From: Candidatus Parcubacteria bacterium
Lineage (GTDB): Bacteria; Patescibacteriota; Patescibacteriia; PEXW01
NCBI GenBank assembly: GCA_003597955.1
Contig: QZJU01000014.1
Location: 1-21,404 of the forward strand
Direction: 5' to 3'
Length of the DNA stretch: 21,404 nt
The translations under genes and the position numbers were made by a program. Positions 766-15,444 of the stretch are shown piece after piece. Within the stretch, counting starts at the first letter, position 1. The number at the start of each line of letters is the position of its first letter. A model generated the notes under the pieces. The model made no database searches and was not told the origin of the DNA. It worked only from the letters and a program-made list of their open reading frames with translations.

Positions 766-1974
766 TTACTGAATAGCATTACTGACATTGTAAATCGGCA
801 GTAAAATCGAAGACACCATAAAGCCCACGCCTACGCCCATCAAAAGCAGAATTAACGGCTCAATTAAGGAAACCAAATTGCGGATTAGGCCATCGAGCTC
901 GTTTTCGTAAAACTGGGCGACTTTCAGCAAAACCTGATCCAGGCGGCCGGATTGTTCGCCCACGGCCATCATCTGGGAAAGCATCAAAGGTACCTGCTTG
1001 CTTTTAACAAATACTGTGGTAATGGAATTACCGTCTTCTACTTCTTGAATGGTTCTTTGAATGATAGCTTGATAGGTATGGTTGCCAACAACCTCACCGG
1101 TAATGGCCAAGGCTTGGGAAATCGGCACACCCGAACCCAGAAGCGTGGAAAGCGAACGTGAAAGCCGAGTGAGATAAATCATGGTGAAAATTTTTCCGGC
1201 AATGGGCGTGCGAAGCTTAAGAATATCCAAAACCCGACGGCCGTTCTCGGTCCGGCGCCACCACATAAACGCCCCGACCGCAGCAGCAACAATTAACACC
1301 ACCACATACCATTGATTCCTAACAAAATCACTGACCGCGATCAGCATCTTGGTCGTGACCGGCAGCTCGGCTCCGCCTTCGGCAAAAATTGTCAGGAGCT
1401 TCGGCAAAACAAAAATGACCATTACCACGCCCACAGCGACTACTGCAAAAAGCACGACCGCCGGATAAATGAAAGCGCCCCTTACGCGGCTGATGATGCC
1501 GTAATCTTTTTCTTTCTGGTCGGCCAGGTAAACCAGCACTTCGTCCAATTTGCCCGTGGTTTCGCCGGAACGGACCATGGAAACAAAAAAAGTGTTGAAA
1601 ACTTGCGGGTAGCGCGCCATGGCCGTGGACAATTTAGCGCCGCCGTCGACTTCGTCCAAGACATCCGAAAGAATCATTTTAAAATGCACATTCTTGGTTT
1701 GCCTGACCAGGATCCGCAATGCCCGAACGATCGGCACGTTTGCTGCAATCATCACAGCCAACTGCCTGGCGAAAATCACCTGCTCTTTGATGCTGACGCG
1801 GCTGAATAAATTCGTGCCCAAAAATTTGGCGGTCTTTGGCCTTTCTTTCAGGGAAATTATGGTTAGCTGTTTTTCCCTTAAAGTATCGTAAGCCACGCCG
1901 TCAGTTGGCGCTACTACCGCGCCTTCAACTGTTTGGCCAGCCAAATTCTTCGCTCGATAGTCAAAAATCGCCAT
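766..1974 (-). CDS. pilC: PilC/GspF family type IV pilus inner-membrane platform protein
   Basis: A 402-residue protein of normal PilC length. It forms the cytoplasmic-membrane platform on which PilB and PilT act to add or remove pilin subunits. Two repeated T2SSF domains are visible, at about residues 67-190 and 270-392. Each contains the family's Gly-rich helix turn: SGETTGKLDEVL near 136-147 and GEQSGRLDQVL near 339-349. Predicted membrane segments are about 168-190, 221-238 and 367-392. The N-terminal MAIFDYRAKNLAGQTVEGAV stretch is the usual PilC/GspF opening. Its start lies 3 nt after the pilT stop, so translation is probably coupled. It is the last clear assembly gene before the pilin gene. 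The family call is secure. Confidence 0.96.
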   Translation of the reverse strand: MAIFDYRAKNLAGQTVEGAVVAPTDGVAYDTLREKQLTIISLKERPKTAKFLGTNLFSRVSIKEQVIFARQLAVMIAANVPIVRALRILVRQTKNVHFKMILSDVLDEVDGGAKLSTAMARYPQVFNTFFVSMVRSGETTGKLDEVLVYLADQKEKDYGIISRVRGAFIYPAVVLFAVVAVGVVMVIFVLPKLLTIFAEGGAELPVTTKMLIAVSDFVRNQWYVVVLIVAAAVGAFMWWRRTENGRRVLDILKLRTPIAGKIFTMIYLTRLSRSLSTLLGSGVPISQALAITGEVVGNHTYQAIIQRTIQEVEDGNSITTVFVKSKQVPLMLSQMMAVGEQSGRLDQVLLKVAQFYENELDGLIRNLVSLIEPLILLLMGVGVGFMVSSILLPIYNVSNAIQ

Positions 1975-1977
1975 ATT

Positions 1978-3051
1978 TTAGCGGTTTATCATCTGTTTTA
2001 AACTCTGGGGGTCGATTGCCACGGCTTCGGCGTCTTCGGGCTTGATATCGCCCACCCGAACCAATTCCGCCAAAGACCGGTCTAAGGACACCATGCCTTC
2101 CTGACGGGAAGTTTGAATGGTGTTGGCCAATTGCAGAAATTGGCCATCGCGAATGACTGCACGGGAAGCGCTGGTGGGTGCAAAAATTTCCGAAACCAAA
2201 ATCCGACCGCCGCCCACCCGGGGCACCAGCCGCAAATTCACAATGCCCTGTAATGCGTCGGCGATAATCTTGCGCGCGGCTTCCTGTTCGGCCAGAGGAA
2301 AGGCGTTCACCAGCCGTTCAATGGCCTGCGCGGAAGAATCGGCAGTAATAGTTGCTAAGATTAAGCGCCCGCTGTGGAGGGCATTAACGCAGGCACGCAA
2401 ATCCGTGTCGGTTTCCAGTTCGGAAATCGCTACAACATCCACATCCTCGGATTCGATAAGAGCGAGTGCGTGCTCCATAGTTTTGACATCAACGCCGACC
2501 TCTCGTTGCTCGATAATGCTCTTTTGGCCGGCGAAAAGAAATTCAATCGGTCGTTCGATGGTAATGATGTGGCAAACTCGCTCTTGATTAATCAAATTCA
2601 ACATCGCCGCCATGGCGGTGGTCCGGCCCGAGCCGAAAGGTCCAGATATCAAAACCAAGCCGTGGGGGGCCCGAGCAAAATTCTCCGATTCTTTTGGCAA
2701 GCCCAACTCGGCCAAAGTCGGGATCACATCCGGAATAAACCGCAAATCCAAAGACAAATTACCTTTTTGATACATGGCGATCATCCGAAAACGCATTTTG
2801 CCTTCCAGGGAAATAGTGACCCGTATGTCTTTTTCGGATTCCAAGCTTTTAAGCTGGACGGGCGAGAGAACAGAACCAATGTAGCTTTTTAATAAATCTG
2901 TGCTGATAATCATTTCCTGATCCAGCTGCATTAATTTTCCGTCCACCCTTAAAACTGGCGGATTGCCGGGCACAAGATGAATGTCCGAAGCCCGATACTG
3001 CGTCGCTTGCGTTAAAATTCTGGTAATCGCTTGTTGTTCGGAGGTTAACAT
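1978..3051 (-). CDS. pilT: PilT-like retraction ATPase homologue with degenerate active site
   Basis: The 357 residues align with PilT along their whole length: SDIHL and PPVLRVDGKL at 22-40, an ATPase core at about 130-255 and the QTS..EGM..LD.SLAEL tail at 313-330. PilT normally powers pilus retraction as a hexameric ATPase in the cytoplasm. Here the active site is badly altered. Walker A reads GPFGSGRT (137-144), with Arg143 in place of the invariant Lys. The Asp box reads ERP (166-168) instead of EDP. Walker B reads DVDVVAISELETD instead of DPDVxLVGEMRD, keeping only Glu211. The His box reads ATITADSS, with Thr236 in place of His. TGH is SGR and the AIRNLIRE motif is eroded. The frame is intact and gap-free, so this is not decay by frameshift. 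A pseudo-ATPase or regulatory subunit is likely; a true PilT may be encoded elsewhere. Confidence 0.88.
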   Translation of the reverse strand: MLTSEQQAITRILTQATQYRASDIHLVPGNPPVLRVDGKLMQLDQEMIISTDLLKSYIGSVLSPVQLKSLESEKDIRVTISLEGKMRFRMIAMYQKGNLSLDLRFIPDVIPTLAELGLPKESENFARAPHGLVLISGPFGSGRTTAMAAMLNLINQERVCHIITIERPIEFLFAGQKSIIEQREVGVDVKTMEHALALIESEDVDVVAISELETDTDLRACVNALHSGRLILATITADSSAQAIERLVNAFPLAEQEAARKIIADALQGIVNLRLVPRVGGGRILVSEIFAPTSASRAVIRDGQFLQLANTIQTSRQEGMVSLDRSLAELVRVGDIKPEDAEAVAIDPQSLKQMINR

Positions 3052-3141: not shown

Positions 3142-3564
3142 TCACTTAACCAATCTTTTAACCTTGGCCACTACTTCCGAGGGCATAAAATGGGCCTTGA
3201 TCAAATAGTCTTTGGCGCCAAGCTTAAAACCCTTTTGAACATCCTCCTTTTGTCCAAGATTTGTCAGTAAAATCACGGGGATATTCTTGGTTGCGCCATT
3301 GGCTTTAAGCTCTTGCAAAACCTCAAAGCCGCTTTTTTTAGGCAAGACAATGTCTAAAAGCAGTAAATTCGGAATTTCCTTCTTGGCCAAAATTACCGCT
3401 TGCTCACCATCGCTAGCCAGCAGCACACGAAACCCCTCCAATTCCAACTTGGTCACATACATCCCGGCCAAAAAAGTGTCGTCCTCAACCAACAAGATGG
3501 TTTTTTTCTGATTTCTGTCCCCTCCGTTCTTATTAGAACTTTTCCTAGATTGTGGAGTTGGCAT
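3142..3564 (-). CDS. CheY-like single-domain response regulator in the pilus operon
   Basis: A 140-residue protein made of one receiver domain (about 21-140) after a basic, polar 20-residue extension. The phosphorylation site is complete: acidic pair Asp28/Asp29 (VEDD), acceptor Asp71 (LLLDIVLP), Thr101 (ILLTN) and Lys123 (LIKA). There is no output domain, so it should act by protein contact, as CheY, PilG and PilH do. It lies between pilB and pilT, which suggests it controls a pilus motor or platform component (inference). No histidine kinase is encoded in the window. The ATG at 3564 leaves a 30-nt gap after pilB and has no Shine-Dalgarno site. Confidence 0.93.
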   Translation of the reverse strand: MPTPQSRKSSNKNGGDRNQKKTILLVEDDTFLAGMYVTKLELEGFRVLLASDGEQAVILAKKEIPNLLLLDIVLPKKSGFEVLQELKANGATKNIPVILLTNLGQKEDVQKGFKLGAKDYLIKAHFMPSEVVAKVKRLVK

Positions 3565-3594: not shown

Positions 3595-5358
3595 TTATTC
3601 CTGGGTGGCTCGCAAAACTTCCTCCACCGTGGTGTAGCCCAAGATGGCTTTCACAAAGCCGTCTTCTTTCATGGTCAAAACGCCCTGCCGCTTCGCTTCG
3701 GTTTTGATGTCCTGCAGTTTTGAACCGCTGGTAATTATCATCTGCATCTGCTCGGTGATTTCCAACACTTCGGCCACCACCATCCGACCCTTATAACCGC
3801 TATTGCCGCAGCGGACGCAACCGCGGCCGTAAGAAAAACTGATCGGCTTGCTTAAATCCAGGCCCTTGGGGAAAGACTCGGCTGGCGCCTTTTTCAAGGT
3901 TTCCAAAACTTCTTTGCGGGTGGCTTCGGGCACGATCTGGGTGGTTTTGCAATGTTCGCAAATACGCCTGACCAACCGCTGCGCGACGATTAGCGAAAGT
4001 GAGGAGGAAATCAAAAAGGGTTCGACTTTCATATCAATCAGGCGAGGCACGGCTCCGAAGGCGTCGTTCGTGTGAAGAGTGGAAAAAACCAGATGGCCGG
4101 TAAGGGCGGCATTAACGGCCAATTCCGCGGTTTCCGTATCCCGAATTTCGCCCACCATCACCACATCCGGATCCTGCCGCAAAATGGAACGCAAACCATT
4201 GGCGAAAGTCAGGCCGACTTCAGGGTTAATCTGGGATTGATTTACGCCCTCCATGTGATATTCAACCGGATCTTCCAAAGTCACGATATTAATATCTTCG
4301 GTGTTGATCATGCCCAGCAAAGTGTATAGGGTGGTGGATTTTCCAGAACCCGTGGGGCCGGTACTCAAAACCATACCTTGTGTTGATTCCAGACATTTTA
4401 CCAGAGCTTCTTTTTCCCGAGCGATAAAGCCCAAATCATCCAAATTCAAATGTTGCGAGGAAGAATCCAAAATCCGCATCACCACTTTTTCATTATTCAT
4501 CAAAGGCAGGGTGGAAACCCGCAAATCGATAGACTTGCCGTCGACTTCGGTGTGGAAGCGTCCGTCCTGGGGCAAACGGGTTTCGTCAAGCTTCAAATTA
4601 GAAATGACTTTGATGCGTGCGACAATGGCCGCGTGCACATACGGCGGCAGCTTGATTGAGGTGTGCAAAATGCCATCAACCCGGTAGCGCACGCGCGAAC
4701 CTTCGCTGGTGGGTTCGATGTGAATGTCGGAAGCGTTGCCTTCGATTGCGTGTCGCAAAATTACCGCTACCATTTTGGAAACCGGCGCCGTCTTGATAAC
4801 CTCTTCAATGCCTTTGTCAGCCAAACTGATTTCGTCCAAAGGACTGATTTTTGGTTTTTCGACTGGCGTGGTAGCGGCCAAAGCTTCTTCCACCTCCGCG
4901 CTTAAGCTGGCATACTGCTTCAAAATGCTGGATATGGAACCGTAAGACGCCACATGGTAATCCAGAACATAGTTATTGTTCCGGGCAATAAATTCAATTG
5001 CCTCCAAAGCACGAAAATTCGCTGGGTCAACCATGGCCACGGAGAGCTTCCGACCTTCCTTGGCAAAGGCCACCATCTGGTAATTTCTGGCAATGTCGCG
5101 CGGAATGATATTCAGCAAATCGGAAGAAATCACTCGGCCGTGTAAATCCGCGTAGGGTATTTGAAAAACTTCAGCCCGAGCTTTTGCCAGATCCTCGTCT
5201 TTAACAAAGCCTTTTTCTTCTAAAACCTGGGTGACGGGCACACGTTTCTGTCTGGCCAATTTCTGCGCTTCGACTAATTGCGCTTTGCTAATCACCCCGC
5301 GCTCCATTAGCGTGGTGGCGGTGTCTTTCAAGTCAGTGTGATTCAGGGTTGCGGTCAT
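3595..5358 (-). CDS. pilB: PilB/GspE family pilus extension ATPase
   Basis: The 587 residues have full PilB architecture. The N-terminal GspE/MshEN-like domain (about 12-150) is followed by a linker, then the N2 domain with SDIHIEP (210-216) and the RYRVDGIL strand. The ATPase core has Walker A GPTGSGKST (334-342), Asp box LEDP (361-364), Walker B DPDVVMVGEIRD (396-407) and His box TLHTN (427-431). A zinc tetracysteine, Cys467/Cys470 and Cys514/Cys517, sits in the C-terminal part as in PilB and GspE. All catalytic residues are present, in sharp contrast to the neighbouring pilT. The protein powers pilin polymerisation at the PilC platform. Its ATG overlaps the TGA stop of the preceding gene (ATGA), so translation is coupled. 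The N-terminal domain lacks a clean RLG motif, so cyclic-di-GMP binding is uncertain. Confidence 0.97.
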   Translation of the reverse strand: MTATLNHTDLKDTATTLMERGVISKAQLVEAQKLARQKRVPVTQVLEEKGFVKDEDLAKARAEVFQIPYADLHGRVISSDLLNIIPRDIARNYQMVAFAKEGRKLSVAMVDPANFRALEAIEFIARNNNYVLDYHVASYGSISSILKQYASLSAEVEEALAATTPVEKPKISPLDEISLADKGIEEVIKTAPVSKMVAVILRHAIEGNASDIHIEPTSEGSRVRYRVDGILHTSIKLPPYVHAAIVARIKVISNLKLDETRLPQDGRFHTEVDGKSIDLRVSTLPLMNNEKVVMRILDSSSQHLNLDDLGFIAREKEALVKCLESTQGMVLSTGPTGSGKSTTLYTLLGMINTEDINIVTLEDPVEYHMEGVNQSQINPEVGLTFANGLRSILRQDPDVVMVGEIRDTETAELAVNAALTGHLVFSTLHTNDAFGAVPRLIDMKVEPFLISSSLSLIVAQRLVRRICEHCKTTQIVPEATRKEVLETLKKAPAESFPKGLDLSKPISFSYGRGCVRCGNSGYKGRMVVAEVLEITEQMQMIITSGSKLQDIKTEAKRQGVLTMKEDGFVKAILGYTTVEEVLRATQE

Positions 5359-6509
5359 AATTCGCCAAAAGGATTAGCGTTTCCGCTGGTGCCCAAAGTC
5401 TGCTGGGTGGAATTATTGCCAGCCGCATCCACGGCAATAACGCTGTAATACCGCACTTGGTCTTGGGCCACGCCTTTGTCGATGTAGCCCAAGGCTTGTT
5501 TGGGCAAACCGGCGCTTGCCGCCGCTTCGATCTGGGTGATTTTCTGGCCTAACTGCCCTTTGACATCTGATCGATACACCTCGTAACGAATCACATCTGA
5601 AGCGCTGGAGGGTTGCCAAGATAATTCCATGCCGCCGAGTTCTTCATTGTATTTCGCGGTTAGGCCTTGAGGCGCGGCTGGTGCGCTGGAATCCGTGGCC
5701 GTGGCCGGTTCTTGCGCGCTCCGACCAATGACGATTTCCGAAGCCCAAACCAGGGTGTAGAAATACAAACCCGACTTGGCACCAGCGTCCGTATATTCAA
5801 CCACGCTGGGTTCCAGGCTGGCAAGCAATCTGCCGGTTTCGCCGGCTTTATCTGAACGATAAATTTCAATTTTTTCAACGCTCGCGTCAGCCGGATTAGA
5901 CCAACTTAATTTTACAAAACCGTCTACGTTGGCGCTGACCTGCACAGCTCCGCCAACCTGGCCTGATTGACCAAAAATTTGGGGGGTGGAACTAATGAGC
6001 TTTTCCTGGATGTAGTAGGCTAAGAAAATGCTTTGCTGAAGGTTTTGAGCCTCCGTATAAACACATTGGGTGGCAGTGGGTTTTAGGTGGGCGATATTCT
6101 CGCTATTATTCCCCTGTGCCCTGGTTATCCGAATGGCCGTTGCCATTTCAACTTTTGGATCGGCGGGCTTATTCCAAGTAAACAGCAGGCGGTTGCCGGA
6201 TTGCATATCAAAAACCTGAAATTTTTCCGGGGCGGGCAAAGTATTTGACGGAGTTTTCGCTTCAACCTGCGCCACCAAATCCGTCCCGACCAAAGGCTGA
6301 AGCTCAAAAAATCTGGGGTCGCTAAAAAGCGTTTGGCCGTAATCTTTGGGCAAGGCCGGCCGGTTGGGGTTAACCGCATTATCCAGAGCTTCGCTGCCCG
6401 AAGTGGAAAATCTGTCGTAAACCAAATACCCCAAAATGCCAGCAAGCAAAATTCCGCCCACCAGGAGCATATTTCGAATTTTTTTTGAGGCTTGCTTCTG
6501 AACTAACAT
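5355..6509 (-). CDS. Membrane-anchored fibronectin type III-like protein in the pilus operon
   Basis: 384 residues. A basic N-terminus (KQASKKIR) precedes one membrane helix (about 12-31), so most of the protein should lie outside the membrane. Three fibronectin-III-like units follow, at about 93-175, 185-270 and 277-372. Units 2 and 3 show the clearest pattern: LSWSNPAD..VEKIEIYRSD..G and LSWQPSSASDVIRYEVYRSD, then Tyr-rich strands such as YFYTLVW and RYYSVIAVDAAGN. A short LFSDPRFFEL stretch (61-70) and a C-terminal NPFGEL lie outside the units. The gene sits directly after pilO, where PilP is found in diderms, but no PilP fold is recognisable. A structural role linking PilN/PilO to external parts is inferred. 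It overlaps pilB by 4 nt and starts 6 nt after pilO. Confidence 0.8.
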   Translation of the reverse strand: MLVQKQASKKIRNMLLVGGILLAGILGYLVYDRFSTSGSEALDNAVNPNRPALPKDYGQTLFSDPRFFELQPLVGTDLVAQVEAKTPSNTLPAPEKFQVFDMQSGNRLLFTWNKPADPKVEMATAIRITRAQGNNSENIAHLKPTATQCVYTEAQNLQQSIFLAYYIQEKLISSTPQIFGQSGQVGGAVQVSANVDGFVKLSWSNPADASVEKIEIYRSDKAGETGRLLASLEPSVVEYTDAGAKSGLYFYTLVWASEIVIGRSAQEPATATDSSAPAAPQGLTAKYNEELGGMELSWQPSSASDVIRYEVYRSDVKGQLGQKITQIEAAASAGLPKQALGYIDKGVAQDQVRYYSVIAVDAAGNNSTQQTLGTSGNANPFGEL

Positions 6510-6515
6510 ATAAAT

Positions 6516-7124
6516 TTATTCAAAATAGTACGACCGGAAACTGAAGCTGTAGCTGGTGGGCGCCGCCGAGGTGCTGGGTGAATAAGTGATGCTGGTCAGA
6601 TCCAAAATCGGGGCCTGCTTGGAAAGCGTGCTTAAGAAGCCCTTCATGCGAGGATAATTCAAACTGCCGCCCAAAGTCACGGCGATTGAAAGGGTACGGA
6701 TTTGCGGTCCGCTGGCGGCTGCTACGGATTCGCTCGGACTGGCTGTAGTAATTACCCCTCCATCACTTACCGCCACGGACATTAAAGACATGTTTACTGC
6801 GTCCGCGAATTTTTCCATTTGCTTAAAAATGCCGGGCACATCTTTGCCTTTAGGAATCACCAGAGCAATTCGGTCAATGTTTTCTTGGGGAATGCTGTTC
6901 AGATCTTGGCGCAACGCCTTGAGTTTTTCGGAATAGGCCTGATCGGCTTCCAACTGATTCTGCTTCTGCGTGTAATTTAAACCGCCCAGTTCCTTAGCTT
7001 CGCGGTATTGAGGAATTACAAACCACACGAAGCCCAAGAACAGAATCGCCACGCCCAGGGCAATGCCCAGACCAAAGAGGTGCTGAGAGAAAAAATTTAG
7101 AATTTTTGCGGGATTAAATTTCAT
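6516..7124 (-). CDS. pilO: PilO-like type IV pilus alignment protein
   Basis: 202 residues, the usual PilO size. A short cytoplasmic stretch is followed by one membrane helix (about 17-37), a charged helix or coiled coil (about 40-75), and an alpha/beta domain (about 80-202) matching the PilO ferredoxin-like fold. IDRIALVIPKGKDVPGIFKQMEKFA (83-107) is the typical start of that domain, and YPRMKGFLSTLSKQAPIL (157-174) is its second helix. PilO pairs with PilN through these coils and domains and joins the platform to the rest of the machine. It lies between pilN (4-nt gap) and the fibronectin-like gene (6-nt gap). Sequence identity in this family is low, so the call rests on layout, size and gene order. 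Confidence 0.88.
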   Translation of the reverse strand: MKFNPAKILNFFSQHLFGLGIALGVAILFLGFVWFVIPQYREAKELGGLNYTQKQNQLEADQAYSEKLKALRQDLNSIPQENIDRIALVIPKGKDVPGIFKQMEKFADAVNMSLMSVAVSDGGVITTASPSESVAAASGPQIRTLSIAVTLGGSLNYPRMKGFLSTLSKQAPILDLTSITYSPSTSAAPTSYSFSFRSYYFE

Positions 7125-7128
7125 GCGA

Positions 7129-8451
7129 TTAACGCTTAACGAAAATTTCCGGCTTGACCTTTAAAGAAATGGCAAAGGTCACGATTTCTTCGGTTGGGGC
7201 TGGCTGGCCAGATGGCGGCGTGCCTGCCGTCGGCGTGGCTTGGGTCGAGCGGGCCGCCGAAGAAATGTTGACTTCGGTCACAAAATCCACGGCCTGACGG
7301 AAAATCAAGAGTTGCCGGCCGACATCATCAAAAGACCTGGCCGTGGCCGCTAAACTGACTGAGCCGTTAACATCCACGGACATATTCCCGTAAGTTACGG
7401 TTGGTAGGGTGTACTTTTCCAATTCTTCAAAAAACTTGTCCCAATAAATGTGTTGATTTAAAATCTGGCGGACGCTGTTGGCTTTCTGCTGTAAGGTTTG
7501 CGCATATTTTAAGGTCCCTGTCATATTGGATTCGATTTCCACGTTGACTTGCTGAAGCTGTTCGTCCAGACTGGCCAACTTTTTTTCAATATTGTTCGTA
7601 TACAGCCAAAGTCCGAAAGAAATTGCCGCCACCAAAACCGCGGGGCCAACCAAAGTCAGCGCAAAATAAATTTTAGACTTCGGGCCGGTTTTGGGCTGAT
7701 ATTCTTCGGGCACCAAGTTTACATTCAGTCCATTGCCCAAAATTGGTTGGCGTGGCGTAAAATCGGTCTGCGGTTTTTCTGGAATTTTTTGCTCGGGCGC
7801 CAACGGTGCGCTGGGCATTTTTGGTTTCACTTCTGCGGGCGCTACCGGCTTGTAAGCGGGTGGTGGCGGAGGCGGTGGCGGCGGAGGCACCGCGGGTTTA
7901 CTGATCTGGTTTAAAGTCGGACTGAAAATTTTTGCTGGCGCATTTGGGGTGGGTGGCGGCGTCCAGCTTGGTTTGCGCGTTTCCGGCCGGGGCGCCCGGA
8001 TCACGGGCTTGGCTGGTATTGGCGCAGGCTTGCTGGCTTCGGGCTTGGGTTTTCCGATTTGACCTTGAAATCGATTTAAAAAGCGACGAAAAAAACCAAC
8101 CGGTTTTGGCCCTGACGGCTTTGGCGCTTCGCTTGGAGAGACCGGCGGTTTTGCCAAACCTAAACGGTCGGTCATAGTTTCAATTTTCGTCACTGGCCCG
8201 GATGGGCCAGCGGTTTTTTGAATGCTTTGCGCATGCGCGGGCTTGGGTTCAGCGGGTTTTATTTTAGGCAGGGGCTGGGGTTTGCGTTTAAAGATTGACT
8301 TAAAAAATTCCAAAACCCCGCCCATTTTCACCACGCGTTCGCCAAAGACCCGGTCTTTCGGTTCGGTCATCTCAATTTCCGGGGGTTTCGGTTTAACCTC
8401 TTTTTTTAACTGTTTATCCTTTTCCGGCAAAAGGTTGATGGATGAATCCAT
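7129..8451 (-). CDS. pilN: PilN-like protein with two INLLP-type motifs and a long Pro-rich linker
   Basis: 440 residues, about twice the usual PilN length. The C-terminal part is a normal PilN: NVNLVPEEY (243-251), one membrane helix (about 262-284), a coiled coil (about 287-330) and a ferredoxin-like domain (about 335-438). Before it lie 240 extra residues, opening with SINLLPE (4-10). This is a second copy of the short motif by which PilN N-termini bind the groove of PilM. The stretch between is disordered, rich in Pro, Lys and Ala, with ten consecutive prolines at 189-198 and two short amphipathic stretches (FFKSIFKRK, 49-57; GFFRRFLNRF, 119-128). It follows pilM with a 9-nt gap. The open frame is continuous, so this is a real extension rather than two genes. 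The function of the double motif is inferred: one PilN may contact two PilM sites. Confidence 0.88.
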   Translation of the reverse strand: MDSSINLLPEKDKQLKKEVKPKPPEIEMTEPKDRVFGERVVKMGGVLEFFKSIFKRKPQPLPKIKPAEPKPAHAQSIQKTAGPSGPVTKIETMTDRLGLAKPPVSPSEAPKPSGPKPVGFFRRFLNRFQGQIGKPKPEASKPAPIPAKPVIRAPRPETRKPSWTPPPTPNAPAKIFSPTLNQISKPAVPPPPPPPPPPAYKPVAPAEVKPKMPSAPLAPEQKIPEKPQTDFTPRQPILGNGLNVNLVPEEYQPKTGPKSKIYFALTLVGPAVLVAAISFGLWLYTNNIEKKLASLDEQLQQVNVEIESNMTGTLKYAQTLQQKANSVRQILNQHIYWDKFFEELEKYTLPTVTYGNMSVDVNGSVSLAATARSFDDVGRQLLIFRQAVDFVTEVNISSAARSTQATPTAGTPPSGQPAPTEEIVTFAISLKVKPEIFVKR

Positions 8452-8460
8452 AATAAAAAA

Positions 8461-9594
8461 TTAAGATCCCAGTTGCCTCAATGCCAGTCCGACCGCCACG
8501 GCAAAACGCGGCCCGATTTCATTCCAAACTGGCTTCAATTCCACGGGATAAGCAACGCGACCCCAGGGATCGCCTATGTAGGTTCGGATATTGAAAAGCT
8601 TGGTGAAGTATTCGGGCAGATTCGTTAAGAAGGCCGAACCGCCGGCCAAAACTATCTTTTCAATATTTCTTCCGGTATTTTGGTTCTGGTACAAATTCAG
8701 AACATAACGAATTTCGTTGGTAATGGAATTCACCACGAATTCAATTGCTTTAGGAATATTGCTTTGGCTGGCCGTTTGGGTGGAAATGAAGAAATCCCGT
8801 TTGAACTGTTCCGCCCGTTCCGGATTGACCCTAAGCGTGCTGGCAATGGTTTTGGTAATAGTGTCCCCGCCCACATCAATGGAGCGGGTCAGCATGGGAA
8901 TGCCTTCGCTGAAAACCACAATGTCCGTGGCAATCGCACCGATATCCACGATCATGATCGGCGCTTTGTCATGGCCGATTAAGGACCGCTCCACGGAAAA
9001 AGCCTCAGTCTCCAAAGCCACCAACTGCAAGTCCGCGGCTTTGAAAATTTCCATGTACTTCTGCACCAAATTTTTCGGCGCGGCGGTCAACAGAACTTTC
9101 AAATCTTTCGCGCTGGTTTTGCCTGCCGTTTCCGGGGAAGGCATATTTGCTTCTTTGTGATTCACCTGACCTTGGGCGTTTATGCCGGAAACTTTGGCCG
9201 CCAAAGAGTCTTCTTTCAAGACTTCCCAATCCAAAATCATTTCTTCCACGGGCATAGGCACGAATTTCTTGGCTTCCCATTTGACTGCGGACATCAATTC
9301 CTTTTTGGACATCTGCGGCAGGGAAATGATGGAGCTGAAAACCGTAAAACTGGGCAGGGCCGTCACGGCCAAACGGGAGCTGACCCGCGCGGCCTTGGTC
9401 ACCTGCTTAAGAGCCTCCACGATCGCCCGCATTTCCTCGGAAACGCTGTTTTTCAGCAAATCACTGCGTTTTTCGGCAAAACCATAAGTCACCAAAGTCG
9501 GCCGGTTGTTCACCGATTTCAATTCCACCAGCTTGATGGCAGAACCGCCGATGTCAATGCCTAAATAACTTTGTTTGATTGAAAATAAAGGCAT
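8461..9594 (-). CDS. pilM: PilM, actin-like type IV pilus assembly protein
   Basis: 377 residues with the actin/FtsA-like nucleotide-binding layout. Phosphate-1 motif LGIDIGGSAIKLVEL is at 11-25, phosphate-2 motif MIVDIGAIATDIVVF at 214-228 and adenosine motif IVLAGGSAFL at 314-323. The segment KKELMSAVKWEAKKFVP (97-113) is the strongly conserved PilM helix before the groove that holds the PilN N-terminus. PilM is a cytoplasmic ring-like scaffold linking PilN to the motor. A Lys/Gln/Ser-rich insert at about 130-163 is probably a surface loop. The start is 6 nt after the large upstream gene, with no Shine-Dalgarno site, so it is probably translated by coupling. Confidence 0.97.
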   Translation of the reverse strand: MPLFSIKQSYLGIDIGGSAIKLVELKSVNNRPTLVTYGFAEKRSDLLKNSVSEEMRAIVEALKQVTKAARVSSRLAVTALPSFTVFSSIISLPQMSKKELMSAVKWEAKKFVPMPVEEMILDWEVLKEDSLAAKVSGINAQGQVNHKEANMPSPETAGKTSAKDLKVLLTAAPKNLVQKYMEIFKAADLQLVALETEAFSVERSLIGHDKAPIMIVDIGAIATDIVVFSEGIPMLTRSIDVGGDTITKTIASTLRVNPERAEQFKRDFFISTQTASQSNIPKAIEFVVNSITNEIRYVLNLYQNQNTGRNIEKIVLAGGSAFLTNLPEYFTKLFNIRTYIGDPWGRVAYPVELKPVWNEIGPRFAVAVGLALRQLGS

Positions 9595-9600
9595 AATTTT

Positions 9601-12600
9601 TTAAGGTTGGGTGCGGGTAGGATTAGGCAAGGCTTTGCTTACATCGGCCAAACCCGGGGGAGGATTGAGATACAGCCGCTGATCATAGATAATCTTCTCT
9701 CCGGGCAAAGTTAAATCCTTTGAGCCGTACCTTTCTAATACGAAACTTCTGGCCAATATCAGCCCCTCCACAAGTAAAGGGATGCATTTTTGGCTGCCGC
9801 CAGTGCCAGTAGGGCAATAAGCTAAATCATTGCCGGTTTTAAAGGCGCCGCCAGTGCCATCTTCTTTGCCCATAACAATGAATGCACCGATCAACTGATT
9901 CACCGTTGGCTCAATTTCCACATCACCCTTAACCACAAAAGCAATGGTTGGCACATCCCGGATTTTTGACGGCGAATTGGGTTCAGAACTGATTATATTA
10001 TAATTAATTTTTAGGTTTCCGTCCACTACAATTGTCGTGGTTTGGGCGCTGGTTTCTCCTGTGGTAAACGGCAGACGCCAGGCAAACCTAACAGTGGATT
10101 CCGTATCATGACTTTTTACGCTTGTCAGGCTTTGGACTCCTGAAAAACGCTTGGTGGCTGAATCATAACCCGTGTAAGACACATACTCTTCATTAGCCGT
10201 GCCTGGGTCAATAACTAGAGCGCAACCAGCGCAATTCGGCCGATCATAAGTCGTGCCGCCCTGTACGTATTGAGCCGAAGGCGTAGGAAAATCACCGCCA
10301 TTAACGGTTAATGTACCTGCCCCGACATCCCGCGTCACATATTTCCCATTGCCGCCATCCACGGTAAAATCTCCGCTAATGTGAATGACTTGACTATCAA
10401 GTTTTTGCAAAGGCGGCACATGAGTTGCCCATTGCGCGTCTTGAGTGGTTGAAAATTTCAAGCCCTGCAATAAAGAACTGGTCCAGGTGCCGGTCGTGGT
10501 TAAACCCGTCGGCTCTTCTCCGGTTTTTGCGCTGGTTTCAAAAAGCGAATTCCCAAAACGATTTTGACCCGTGTTAACAATTTTTGGGGTTGTACCGCTT
10601 AAGTACTGCAAGCCAATCGGGTTACTGACAAAACCAATCAAGCCAGCCAAATCCAATTTACCCAAAACATTCCGGTAGATAACCGACTGGCTGGATGGAT
10701 ATTCAATTTTAGGCTTGCTTCCGGTCGCGGAGCCGAAAAAATGCGAGGTGGGCAAGCCCGTGGTATAACCCGAGCCCGGCAAAGTAAACGGGGTAATGTT
10801 GCCGCTGGCTTCGATGCGATAAGTGCTAACCGCGCATTCATCGTCAAAAGTTCCGTCGCCATCGTAATCGCACATTATCGCTTCCCCGGATTTTTTTTCT
10901 GGTTTGGGGAGCATGATGTCTTCCACGGAATACACATTCCCGAACAAGGTTTCCAGCCAGGCATAGCCCAAAAAAATTAAAGGCCTGAACTGAATCCAGC
11001 CATAACTGTCACTCCAGCCCCAACCGTACAATTCATAAAAACTTCCGCTCCAAAATGCTTCCACGCCGTATTCCTGGCTGGTAACATTTGTAATAATTGA
11101 TCCCGCAGGGTAACTCCCAACAAAACCCGGATCTAAGGCCAAACCATTACTGCCTTGCCTGGTATATTTAACATACTCACTATCCAACATCGCGATACCG
11201 GTGGCGCCGTCACTCCCAAAATTTACAATATCTGCGCTGCTTAAAGTTAAAGAAGAGCATTGATTACAAGCAACGGTCAAAGTTCCAGAAGGGTTTGTAT
11301 CAACTTTAAAATACCCTCTTAACCTAATCCAGCCTTCGTCATCATTCGTGCAACGCCCAGTGCCGGAATCCAAATCGCACAAATTCAAAAACCTGCCCCA
11401 GCCATAAACCTTTTGCGTGCTTGGGTCGTATTTTGCCAAGGCTACCGTACCATCACTTAATATGCTGTTATGATAGGCATTACCAGGAGGATTGCCGTGG
11501 GGGTTTGCGGCTGTTACTGATTCCTTTCTTTCAAAACTTAACCAACCGGCATTTGATGACCAAGCATAGCCCCCAAAGCGATAGCCGTTTGGCGCAACCG
11601 CCGTAGCCGCTGGCACGGTATTATTAACAAAACCAATGCCGGCGCCATAAGTCGAATCCGTGCAATCTGTGTTATTGCCGCAATTCAATGAAAGCCAGCC
11701 GAAATTCGATGACCAACCCCAACCCATCACCGGATTTGCAGCTTCGCTTGGGCCAATGCTGGTTCCGCCCAAATTCGCGGAAAAACTGACTCTTTGCGAA
11801 CCAATCTGCGACCACATTATCGGCGGCAGACCCGAGTTGATTACAAATGGATCAAGCGCATCATAAGGCACGAAGTTAGCTATTGAAGGGGTTTGTGCAA
11901 AAACCGAAACCGTTTGATCACTGGCTGGATTCCAGCCCCAGCCCAGGCTTGGCGGATTTAACTCTTCAAAAATTGTCAGCTGGTTATTATTCGTATTTCT
12001 TGCTGCGACCCAAGCTTTGGGCTGGCCATTGGCATGCTGGCCAAAAAACCCCACACTCGGCGAATAATAATTATTATTGCCCAAGCTCCATTCCTCACCG
12101 CCCGCGCAATCCACACTTGAAGTCTGGGCTAAGTCTGTTGCAATGCTTATGCTACATGCTTGCGCCCTTATCTTTTTGTCATAAGGTTCAGGTGTTTCTT
12201 TTTCCACGTTGTTGTAGGTCTTGCCGCCTTCATAAGCCACCACCATCCTGCCAGTCAAATCGCCGGTCGCGCCTGAACCCACGGTAAAATCAAATTGATA
12301 TTGAGCGCTGGCGACTTCCAAATCGCCGGCCCGAAAACCATGACAGACCTCGTTGTCATTTGCCGCGCACGGGTCTTGCTCAAAATAATAAACCTCCATG
12401 CCGGCGAAATTTGCCAGGGCAATTGTCGGCCCAGAAGTACTTTGCCAAACCGTATCATACTGACTTTTTAAAACCCTTAGATTCAAAGGCTGACCGTCTC
12501 CTGACACACAAGTTGTTGTATAAACACCGCAAATTTGTTCGATCTTAAAAACAACCTTTGCTGGTTTTGAATAAATAATGGCTGGATTTTTTTTATTACC

Positions 12601-13476
12601 AACAGGAAAAAAAAGCGCTCTTGGCTCTGAACCACGAGTATTAGACGAACTAAATAACAATGGTGTCGTAAATCCATAATTAAATGAGTTTGTCCAACTC
12701 CCGCTCCAGCCGACATTTTCAAAATTACTTTCAGTAGTATATACGACAAAATAATTTCTATTACCAGTTCCACAAGAAACCAAACCCCAAATTCTCCGTG
12801 AGCCATCAGCTAAAATCTGTACGCCGACGCCGACCGATGAAAATGAACTGCTTGGAACATCGCATGTTCCTGGATCAAAATTCGATGCCGGATCTTTTTG
12901 AGTACTAATACTCCACATCAAACTACCCTCCTCCCAAATTAACCTGGCAATCTTACCTGAAGTATAAGGATTTTGAAAAGCATATGTATAAGAAACCCAA
13001 AAATCCTTGCCGTTTGGGTCTGGATACAAAGTATACTCAAATTTATTACCCATAATCGGCAAACTTGTGGTAGCACCAGTCAGGGCCTGCGACCAAGTTC
13101 GACCATTATTACTACTCATCCGGAATTCCAATTGACAAACCCGAGTTGGACTGCTGCCCGTGCAAGCGCCGGTGTTTACGAAAGCCACGACCAATAGCCG
13201 ATAATCGGTTTTGGGGTTAATGTACAATACTTTCCGATTTTTCTGGTTTTCGGGCCGCCAAGATCTCTCGGTTATTGCACCAGAAACTGTGTCGCGCCGA
13301 CCTAAATCATAGTTTTGAGCTTGAAGTCGACCATAAATTGAGCCCATAACTACGGGTGCTGGATTAGTCAAAGCCGCATTTCCGACCTTGGGAGTAAAAA
13401 CTAAAATCCCCAAAAAAGCCAGGCTAAACATTAGCCAAGCTCTTACTTTACTATTTAGTAAGCGTTTTTTTCGCAT
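9601..13476 (-). CDS. Giant secreted protein heading the pilus operon, PilY1-like candidate
   Basis: 1291 residues, first gene after the operon promoter. A Sec signal peptide is clear: basic MRKKRLLNSKVR, hydrophobic AWLMFSLAFLGILVF, then a likely cut near GNA-AL (about 34). Residues 36-560 are beta-rich and hold an Asp-box/BNR motif, SSNNGRTW (121-128), as in sialidase-like propellers. Residues 584-840 carry four GW modules, such as GWGWSSNFGWLSL and GYAWSSNAGWLSF. A calcium-type loop, DYDGDGTFDDE (870-880), is bracketed by cysteines. The last third (about 1025-1260) is beta-helix-like (GDFTVDGGNG, VVDGNLKINYN, VVKGDVEIEPTV, GAFIVMG). About 22 cysteines occur in close pairs. There is no sortase signal or C-terminal membrane anchor. 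Linkage to pilM, together with the propeller and calcium-loop hints, suggests a pilus-tip adhesin like PilY1; this is inference, and no family match was confirmed. Confidence 0.75.
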   Translation of the reverse strand: MRKKRLLNSKVRAWLMFSLAFLGILVFTPKVGNAALTNPAPVVMGSIYGRLQAQNYDLGRRDTVSGAITERSWRPENQKNRKVLYINPKTDYRLLVVAFVNTGACTGSSPTRVCQLEFRMSSNNGRTWSQALTGATTSLPIMGNKFEYTLYPDPNGKDFWVSYTYAFQNPYTSGKIARLIWEEGSLMWSISTQKDPASNFDPGTCDVPSSSFSSVGVGVQILADGSRRIWGLVSCGTGNRNYFVVYTTESNFENVGWSGSWTNSFNYGFTTPLLFSSSNTRGSEPRALFFPVGNKKNPAIIYSKPAKVVFKIEQICGVYTTTCVSGDGQPLNLRVLKSQYDTVWQSTSGPTIALANFAGMEVYYFEQDPCAANDNEVCHGFRAGDLEVASAQYQFDFTVGSGATGDLTGRMVVAYEGGKTYNNVEKETPEPYDKKIRAQACSISIATDLAQTSSVDCAGGEEWSLGNNNYYSPSVGFFGQHANGQPKAWVAARNTNNNQLTIFEELNPPSLGWGWNPASDQTVSVFAQTPSIANFVPYDALDPFVINSGLPPIMWSQIGSQRVSFSANLGGTSIGPSEAANPVMGWGWSSNFGWLSLNCGNNTDCTDSTYGAGIGFVNNTVPAATAVAPNGYRFGGYAWSSNAGWLSFERKESVTAANPHGNPPGNAYHNSILSDGTVALAKYDPSTQKVYGWGRFLNLCDLDSGTGRCTNDDEGWIRLRGYFKVDTNPSGTLTVACNQCSSLTLSSADIVNFGSDGATGIAMLDSEYVKYTRQGSNGLALDPGFVGSYPAGSIITNVTSQEYGVEAFWSGSFYELYGWGWSDSYGWIQFRPLIFLGYAWLETLFGNVYSVEDIMLPKPEKKSGEAIMCDYDGDGTFDDECAVSTYRIEASGNITPFTLPGSGYTTGLPTSHFFGSATGSKPKIEYPSSQSVIYRNVLGKLDLAGLIGFVSNPIGLQYLSGTTPKIVNTGQNRFGNSLFETSAKTGEEPTGLTTTGTWTSSLLQGLKFSTTQDAQWATHVPPLQKLDSQVIHISGDFTVDGGNGKYVTRDVGAGTLTVNGGDFPTPSAQYVQGGTTYDRPNCAGCALVIDPGTANEEYVSYTGYDSATKRFSGVQSLTSVKSHDTESTVRFAWRLPFTTGETSAQTTTIVVDGNLKINYNIISSEPNSPSKIRDVPTIAFVVKGDVEIEPTVNQLIGAFIVMGKEDGTGGAFKTGNDLAYCPTGTGGSQKCIPLLVEGLILARSFVLERYGSKDLTLPGEKIIYDQRLYLNPPPGLADVSKALPNPTRTQP

Positions 13477-13734: not shown

Positions 13735-15444
13735 TTATCCGCCGCCGGGAGGAACGCAAGGACTCGAACCAACAACGCCACTACAGCAATAATGAGTCAC
13801 CGGATTATAACACTGATAGCTACCCACACAACAGGAGGTTTCGTGAATGGTTGTATTTGGAATAGTATAACAACTGGACGCGCCACAGATTGGGTTATTA
13901 TTGTAATTCAAAGTCTTGGATGCTGTCCCTTTTCGGCCAACATTATCTTCGGCCACAGCCACGACATAATATGTGCCGTTGACCCGGTCGGTCGTATTCA
14001 AAACGAGATTCCAAAAACCGTTAAAGACCGTACCACTAGTTAAGGTTGCATAATTCCTGTTATTACTAAAATCGGTGAGCAAGATACCAGTAGTATCATT
14101 ACAGGGGGTGCTAGTACAAATATAATACTTTACACCATTTGGCATGTCTTTCAAACCAGAACCGCTATCCAAAACTTGGGTGGTCAAGGTAATTTGACTG
14201 GAAACCGTGGCTGGATTTGCCGAGGGTACATTAAAAGCTAAAACTGGATTTGTGTAATCGATATAATCTAACCGATTTGACTCTGGGCTCAATAAATCCG
14301 AGGTATTTTTAGCCTGGGCGTAAATTGTCTGCACCGCCGTTAAACCAGTGGTATTCCAATTATAAACACAGGGGCTGCTGGTGCAAGTTTGCACAAGCTG
14401 GGCTGCATTCGCTCCATTCTGAATTTTGATGGTAATTTCTGCAATTTCCTCGGTAGCAGCATCGGGTGAAGTGGCGGTTATGGTCACCGAACCTTGACCA
14501 ATATAGTTACGGCTAACGTTGGGATTAAAAAATTCAGGTGAGACCGCAATGGTTGGTGCCTCTGGCGGGGTTGTATCGCCGGAACAGCTAACCGTTTGAC
14601 TGGAATACAAAATCTTAACTCGAATTTTTATATTTTGCGCAGTAGGATTGTCTACTAATAAATTACCGGAAAATACCCCCGCGGCGCATTCCCGATATTC
14701 AGATTTATCTTGGGGCAAAAGTAACCAGGTTGAATCAGTGGGTGCCCCAGCTAACGAATATAAAATTTGGTAAGACTCTAAGCGATAAGCATTTCCGCCA
14801 AAAACCCCATCCTTAATATTAATGCTCTTGTCAATCTGACTGGCCGTTAAGGTCTCAAGTAAAGTCTCGTCTCCGCCGCCAATGCTCTGCCCGCCAACCG
14901 TTAAGCTATCAACACTTAAAGTACCATTAATATCCACATTGCCTATGAAGGTTCCTGCAAACCCGGCTGGCGCTATTGCTTGGGCGTAAATTGCATTGCC
15001 ATCAACCGTACTGGCAAAAACCCCAGATGCGGAATTAGTACCCGCACCGTAAAGTGCGTACTTACCAGCGGTGCTTGCCGTGCCGTAAACTCCGTGTTCA
15101 TTTGCACTAGCGACATTAATGGGTATGCCCGAATAACCCGATACTGTGGAAATCCCTTGCCCGCTTTCGGACAAAATCAAACCGCCATACAAATTTAAAT
15201 TCTTGGGCGTGCCGGCGACGCCAATAGTCACCGGGGTCAAGATCTGCTGTGCGGCGTTTGGATCCTTCGTGTTTAAAAACAAAGGCTTCTCAACATTGCA
15301 GGTCAGGTCAACTGCAGGATCACAGGTAGGGTTTTCAAAAGTCGCGGCCAAAACCAGTTTTAATCCCAAACCAAAAACCCCGACTAAAAGCAGGGTTAAG
15401 CTAAGCTTAAACCAACTGGGCAGACTTAAATGTTGGTTTTGCAT
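13735..15444 (-). CDS. Secreted surface protein with Ig-like domains and cysteine-rich tail
   Basis: 569 residues. An N-terminal hydrophobic segment (about 12-34, ending LVLAA) is a signal peptide or anchor. Residues 80-185 carry glycine/alanine-rich short repeats (EHGVYGTA, KYALYGAG, SGVFAS, NAIYAQ) typical of fibre- or tail-like surface proteins, then NVDINGTLSVDSLTVGG. From about 292 come two Ig- or cadherin-like beta domains (TTPPEAPTIAVSP.. and YTNPVLAFNVPSAN..), each with a short cysteine loop (CTSSPC, CTSTPC). The tail (520-569) has eight cysteines, including two CC pairs, and ends PPGGG. The gene is a single unit with its own promoter and terminator, next to the pilus operon and in the same direction. 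A structural or adhesive surface role is inferred; no exact family is recognised. Confidence 0.75.
   Translation of the reverse strand: MQNQHLSLPSWFKLSLTLLLVGVFGLGLKLVLAATFENPTCDPAVDLTCNVEKPLFLNTKDPNAAQQILTPVTIGVAGTPKNLNLYGGLILSESGQGISTVSGYSGIPINVASANEHGVYGTASTAGKYALYGAGTNSASGVFASTVDGNAIYAQAIAPAGFAGTFIGNVDINGTLSVDSLTVGGQSIGGGDETLLETLTASQIDKSINIKDGVFGGNAYRLESYQILYSLAGAPTDSTWLLLPQDKSEYRECAAGVFSGNLLVDNPTAQNIKIRVKILYSSQTVSCSGDTTPPEAPTIAVSPEFFNPNVSRNYIGQGSVTITATSPDAATEEIAEITIKIQNGANAAQLVQTCTSSPCVYNWNTTGLTAVQTIYAQAKNTSDLLSPESNRLDYIDYTNPVLAFNVPSANPATVSSQITLTTQVLDSGSGLKDMPNGVKYYICTSTPCNDTTGILLTDFSNNRNYATLTSGTVFNGFWNLVLNTTDRVNGTYYVVAVAEDNVGRKGTASKTLNYNNNPICGASSCYTIPNTTIHETSCCVGSYQCYNPVTHYCCSGVVGSSPCVPPGGG

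Follow-up and report, generated by a model that had tools for sequence, protein, structure and literature searches.

What is a PilT homologue with almost none of its catalytic residues doing inside an otherwise well-formed pilus cassette? The question is raised by a stretch of Candidatus Parcubacteria DNA, 21,404 nucleotides long, which we analysed at full length and call the window. It is contig 11 of a 990 kb genome that is 98.5% complete. The genes of the cassette are listed here from upstream to downstream.

8461..9594, minus strand: pilM (TIGR01175, 203.9 bits against a cut-off of 133; PF11104, E 2e-43)
7129..8451, minus strand: pilN-like gene, named from position only; homologues lie at the same place in related cassettes; profile searches gave no meaningful family match
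6516..7124, minus strand: pilO-like gene, likewise named from position only, with homologues at the same place in related cassettes; no family match in profile searches
5355..6509, minus strand: conserved cassette gene between pilO-like and pilB, with homologues in several related cassettes; no family match in profile searches
3595..5358, minus strand: pilB, an intact extension ATPase with MshEN domain (PF00437, E 1.6e-131; PF05157, E 3.5e-16)
3142..3564, minus strand: receiver gene (single-domain response regulator) between pilB and the PilT homologue (PF00072, E 1.5e-21)
1978..3051, minus strand: the PilT homologue, here called pseudo-PilT, 357 aa with an ATG start, between the receiver gene and pilC
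766..1974, minus strand: pilC, inner-membrane platform protein (PF00482, E 2.2e-55), starting 3 bases past the pseudo-pilT stop codon

Two very large ORFs adjoin the cassette, at 9601-13476 (1291 aa) and 13735-15444 (569 aa). Neither has a Pfam match above the cut-off; they are perhaps surface or tip proteins.

The window protein aligns along its whole length with the PilT/PilU family TIGR01420 (positions 2-342 of 343, E 1.1e-88) and also matches PF00437 (E 1.9e-24). The PilB-type family TIGR02538 fits poorly (69.2 bits) and the N-terminal (MshEN) domain is absent. Among proteins of solved structure, phmmer ranks Aquifex PilT first (E 3.5e-69). This alignment is ungapped from residue 8 to residue 316, with a single 1-residue gap beyond. 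Hence, the gapless PilT-like core described in an earlier note on this DNA is borne out as far as residue 316. An AlphaFold2 model of the protein, made with the class alignment, has a pLDDT of 92.4 and a pTM of 0.89. The closest solved structure is Geobacter PilT4 (6ojx, TM 0.92, Z 43.7) and the whole PilT fold is kept.

The catalytic criteria comprise a Walker A Lys, an Asp box, the Glu of GEMRD/GEIRD, TGH and a His box. The Glu alone is present in the window protein. The remnants of these motifs, and of one further motif, are as follows.

2617..2643, minus strand: Walker A remnant GPFGSGRTT (aa 137-145; canonical GPTGSGKS/T), with Lys replaced by Arg143
2539..2562, minus strand: Asp-box remnant TIERPIEF (aa 164-171), with Glu166 and Glu170 kept and Asp replaced by Arg167
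2407..2436, minus strand: Walker B remnant VVAISELETD (aa 206-215), with Glu211 kept and the GEMRD context lost
2365..2373, minus strand: SGR in place of TGH (aa 227-229; Ser227, Arg229)
2335..2352, minus strand: His-box remnant (aa 234-239), with His replaced by Thr236
2149..2172, minus strand: AIRNLIR-like motif SASRAVIR (aa 294-301), partly kept

Thus, the losses listed in the earlier note (Arg143, ERP, SELET with its Glu, SGR and Thr236) were each confirmed residue by residue. PilU is expected to have active Walker A and B motifs, and these are missing too. Conversely, the motifs of the window PilB are whole (GPTGSGKST at 334, EDPVEY at 362, GEIRD at 403, TGH at 420 and LHTND at 428). Across the class, 71 of 80 PilBs adjoining pseudo-PilT fit a strict motif pattern; the other nine are mostly GEVRD variants. 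The loss is therefore specific to the PilT copy, as the note had supposed. Judged by sequence and predicted fold, pseudo-PilT is a PilT-family member by descent that lacks what the catalytic criteria demand.

To place the window protein among its relatives, all PilT-like genes were read in 57 related genomes, followed by the best-scoring matches from 285 genomes of the class. Counts are per genome and not per independent event. The PilT-like proteins of the class are bimodal; 107 keep 0-2 of the five diagnostic residues and 51 keep all five. The pseudo-PilTs number at least 107, one per genome, as lower-scoring matches were not all read. No diagnostic residue is left in 41 of them, one in 46 and two in 20, and the catalytic Glu and His never occur together (0/107). 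Pseudo-PilT is found across many of the sampled families. In the nearest genome of the same family (G002), pseudo-pilT is split over the ends of contigs C178 and C104 (L044, L045). The two fragments, with 68% and 60% identity to the window protein, are degenerate likewise. The degeneration in 107 genomes, and in both of these fragments, excludes chance. Conservation on this scale also rules out a strain-specific change or sequencing error. The substitutions are thus conserved across the class, 107/107 cassette copies being degenerate, and the idea of a pseudo-ATPase, put forward from the window alone, is strongly supported.

The gene order in the class is pilB-(receiver)-pseudo-pilT-pilC. At 88 of the 107 loci pseudo-pilT has both pilB and pilC as neighbours; 10 have one of the two and 5 have neither in the stretch read. 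The receiver gene adjoins pseudo-pilT at 70 loci, in the same place as in the window. At 4 loci pseudo-pilT lies before pilM. These four (L115, L110, L133 and L141, in G066, G117, G136 and G094) belong to one family, and pseudo-pilT is directly upstream of pilM. Their proteins retain the Walker A Lys (GxFGSGKTT) and the Glu, so that a rearranged cassette is accompanied by a milder loss. The canonical PilTs of the class are located elsewhere. None of the 51 is inside the cassette slot and one (G048) has PilB nearby. In some genomes of the class the slot is empty of PilT, with the order pilB-receiver-pilC or pilB-pilC (four examples). Several genomes have a cassette without pseudo-PilT, yet an orphan PilT is present.

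Outside the class, but within the phylum, the slot is occupied by a canonical PilT in 46/46 genomes. This cassette PilT is the sole PilT in 18/18 genomes checked. A tree of 160 proteins placed the 107 pseudo-PilTs on one side of a branch with support 99. For a second tree, cassette PilTs of other classes were added and 35 catalytic columns were removed. The pseudo-PilTs again formed one clade (99), which branches within the added cassette PilTs (93 and 97). The orphan PilTs of the class stood apart from them, with support of 98 for 27 of 28 rows; the long-branched G023_L084 falls outside the orphan group. The tree without catalytic columns rules out a recent duplication of the orphan PilT as the origin of pseudo-PilT. 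On this phylogenetic evidence, the window gene descends vertically from the phylum's cassette pilT.

In those of the 14 closest pairs for which dS could be estimated, the dN/dS ratio of pseudo-pilT is 0.03-0.18; dS was saturated in the rest. The adjacent pilB, pilC and receiver genes have ratios in the same range. These values indicate that pseudo-pilT is held in frame by purifying selection. Intact frames and dN/dS together rule out a pseudogene. Over the same 253 genome pairs mean identity is 36% for pseudo-PilT and 60% for the orphan PilT; hence, pseudo-PilT evolves faster. The position of the pseudo-PilT clade among cassette PilTs, and the low dN/dS, are explained most simply by a single loss of catalysis from the ancestral cassette gene, in the ancestor of the class. 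Activity is then supplied by a separate canonical PilT lineage, either acquired or arisen by duplication.

Does the cell have such a motor? The source genome encodes six T2SSE-family ATPases; four are PilB-like, one is pseudo-PilT and one is a canonical PilT (G000:C20:48116-49186). The latter has GPTGCGKS, EDP, GEMRD, TGH and LHT, and so all five diagnostic residues. It scores 448 bits against TIGR01420, a family that covers both PilT and PilU. No pilus gene was found beside it in the stretch read, the gene lying at the end of its contig. The earlier note had reasoned that retraction would need another motor, to be sought as a canonical PilT in the full genome. This was correct; the search found one, on contig 20, and retraction therefore has a motor. 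The genome has three PilC genes, in the window, on contig 4 and on contig 20, the latter two beside other PilBs. Across the class, an active PilT accompanies pseudo-PilT in all but 7 of 107 genomes, where an active PilT was called as a second match at E 1e-70; it was read directly in 23 genomes and as fragments in two further genomes. Among the seven is G033 (99% complete, 6 contigs), in which pseudo-PilT (C5:109696-110760) and an intact PilB were present and no active PilT was detected, so that this genome offers a natural example of pseudo-PilT on its own. Many of the genomes are probably metagenome assemblies, so these absences are soft. A VKOR-family gene (L057:7084-7551; PF07884, E 5.3e-26) was seen ~0.55 kb upstream of an orphan canonical PilT.

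The residues that pseudo-PilT has kept are informative. Positions outside the active site are conserved among the pseudo-PilTs. In the AIRNLIR-like motif, Ile300 is kept in 90% of the class and position 301 is Arg or Lys in ~63%. Previously, the inter-subunit contacts of Geobacter PilT were identified as Arg81-Glu164, Arg195-Asp161 and Thr221-His230, of which the last two are made across the moving interface (PMC6858323). We transferred this numbering to the pseudo-PilTs through alignments. The equivalents of Arg81, Glu160 and Glu164 are 97% kept. Conversely, those of Arg195 (14% kept), Asp161 (16%), Thr221 (1%) and His230 (2%) are lost. Among the catalytic positions, the Asp-box Asp is kept in 16% of pseudo-PilTs and the His-box His in 2%, and the catalytic Glu is missing in 64%. 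Because the ring-holding contact is kept, and the switching and catalytic contacts are lost, pseudo-PilT should not cycle alone. Its residues suggest a protein that can still assemble but no longer cycles. No compensating charge swap, as in a rebuilt homohexamer, was found at Arg195-Asp161 (17/43 against 36/64, Fisher p 0.12).

Taken together, the dead cassette copy probably now serves the pilus machine in some role other than that of a motor. We put at about even the chance that pseudo-PilT is a non-catalytic adaptor, coupling the orphan active PilT to its own PilC machine. Pseudo-PilT would still form or join a ring of the PilT type on the cytoplasmic side of the neighbouring PilC and would keep PilT's structural role there. 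The orphan PilT would provide the ATPase and would drive, or be directed to, this pilus machine through pseudo-PilT. There is a precedent for such a division of labour. In Vibrio cholerae, retraction stays close to normal when the Walker motifs of PilT are dead, the power coming from PilU, and PilU has no effect without PilT (PMC6821130, PMC6762196). Since ATPase-dead PilT supports PilU-driven retraction, the structural role of PilT is separate from hydrolysis. With three PilC genes and one active PilT in the source genome, a specificity factor would have a job. The partnership would not be obligatory, given the pseudo-PilT-free cassettes in genomes with an orphan PilT and the seven genomes without a detected active PilT. 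The lack of a swapped charge pair at Arg195-Asp161 also counts against the adaptor. We also raise, tentatively, the possibility that the class runs a natural two-ring motor, in which an active PilT works through a permanently non-catalytic PilT ring on PilC. If true, evolution would have produced here a counterpart to the pair of ATPase-dead PilT and PilU that was made in the laboratory. It would also mean that what PilT does structurally at the base of the pilus can be uncoupled from its ATPase.

The chief rival, which we consider rather unlikely, is that pseudo-PilT acts as a brake or placeholder. A dead ring on PilC would keep PilB or the active PilT off; pili would be locked extended or parked, and the receiver protein encoded next to it may act as the switch. 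According to a review, the motors for extension and for retraction are believed to compete for one site (PMC11656802). In V. cholerae strains that lack PilU, ATPase-dead PilT blocks the native protein when overexpressed (PMC6821130). The genomes with pseudo-PilT and no detected active PilT would also fit a brake, as would the receiver gene adjoining pseudo-pilT at 70/107 loci. However, the receiver also occurs in PilT-free cassettes and, in other classes, next to a canonical PilT. It is therefore not tied to the dead copy, and a dedicated link between the two is not supported. Competition at PilC is not indicated by any result here.

Retained active-site features bear on two other readings. 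One, which we rate as improbable, is that pseudo-PilT binds ATP/Mg without hydrolysis and reports the energy state to the pilus base. Glu166 and Glu170, the latter equivalent to the Mg-contacting Glu164 of Geobacter PilT, are kept in 97% of class pseudo-PilTs. The Walker A Lys site is basic in 103/107 and the GxxxxG frame of the P-loop survives in nearly all. However, that basic residue is Arg in 76 proteins and Lys in 27, the Asp box is broken in 84%, and some members have a disrupted P-loop (GPFGSHMQL, GPYGSQQDL). It is very hard to credit that pseudo-PilT is an active ATPase with a new catalytic set, made of Arg/Lys in place of the TGH His and Asp/Glu/Asn in place of the His-box His. Arg/Lys at the first site is indeed joined by Asp/Glu at the second in 45/107, but 64% of members have no catalytic Glu and the replacements vary between them. 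The basic and acidic residues look rather as if a salt bridge had filled the dead site. We think it equally far-fetched that the gene is a functionless relic decaying towards loss. Its faster evolution, and its absence from some cassettes of the class, would be expected of a relic. Such a history is already contradicted by intact frames in 107 genomes and the low dN/dS, by the confident predicted fold and the conserved residues outside the active site, and by the spread over many sampled families.

Compared with PilT (TIGR01420; Geobacter PilT4 6ojx, Aquifex PilT 2ewv), pseudo-PilT is alike in full-length homology, fold and length. It is likewise beside PilB and PilC and shares the lineage of the cassette PilTs of other classes. 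It differs in having no catalytic Lys, no Asp and neither His, in the Glu lost from 64% of members, and in the missing inter-subunit switching contacts. Vibrio and Pseudomonas, with PilT and PilU, also have two PilT-family proteins per cell, and in Vibrio an engineered ATPase-dead PilT still partners an active second ATPase. However, Vibrio PilT and PilU are both active in nature and the dead alleles are laboratory-made; here the protein in the PilT position is dead by evolution. The active partner here is a canonical PilT-type protein with the five diagnostic residues, for which the TIGR01420 match covers PilT and PilU alike. Thus, of the earlier proposal that pseudo-PilT is a PilU-like helper, the role may be comparable; the likeness ends there, since PilU is an active ATPase. 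The archaellum protein FlaH, which has a RecA fold and is thought to bind ATP without hydrolysing it, sits with the FlaI motor. It belongs to a different family from pseudo-PilT and is not known to be a decayed PilT or FlaI. The T4P-1 PilT of TM7x (Saccharibacteria), phylum-level kin of the window, is also encoded within a pilB/pilC locus. Unlike pseudo-PilT, it is reported to have its ATP-binding and hydrolysis sites (PMC12206443). We found no description of a naturally ATPase-dead PilT among the open-licence papers searched.

PilT is among the best-studied molecular motors and its non-hydrolytic role has been raised as a question by work on PilT and PilU. Here, evolution across a whole class separates PilT's catalysis from its other role, and the residues still conserved mark the non-catalytic needs. 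The family profile does not always flag the loss. The window protein is under the curated TIGR01420 cut-off (297.8 against 319.1 bits), and two pseudo-PilT orthologues pass it (351.3 and 345.4 bits). In a broad survey, PilB and PilT were grouped as a single protein family (PMC6744442). Hence, a 'PilT' in an operon may be dead. The reading of pilus genes changes accordingly for these mostly uncultured bacteria, a large class whose members are ultra-small. In another class, the PilT matches of one family (f108; G308, G446, G510, G407, G436 and G327) fall within open frames of 520-768 residues. The one that was read, from G308, is a canonical cassette PilT of 519 aa, and an extra domain is likely in this family.
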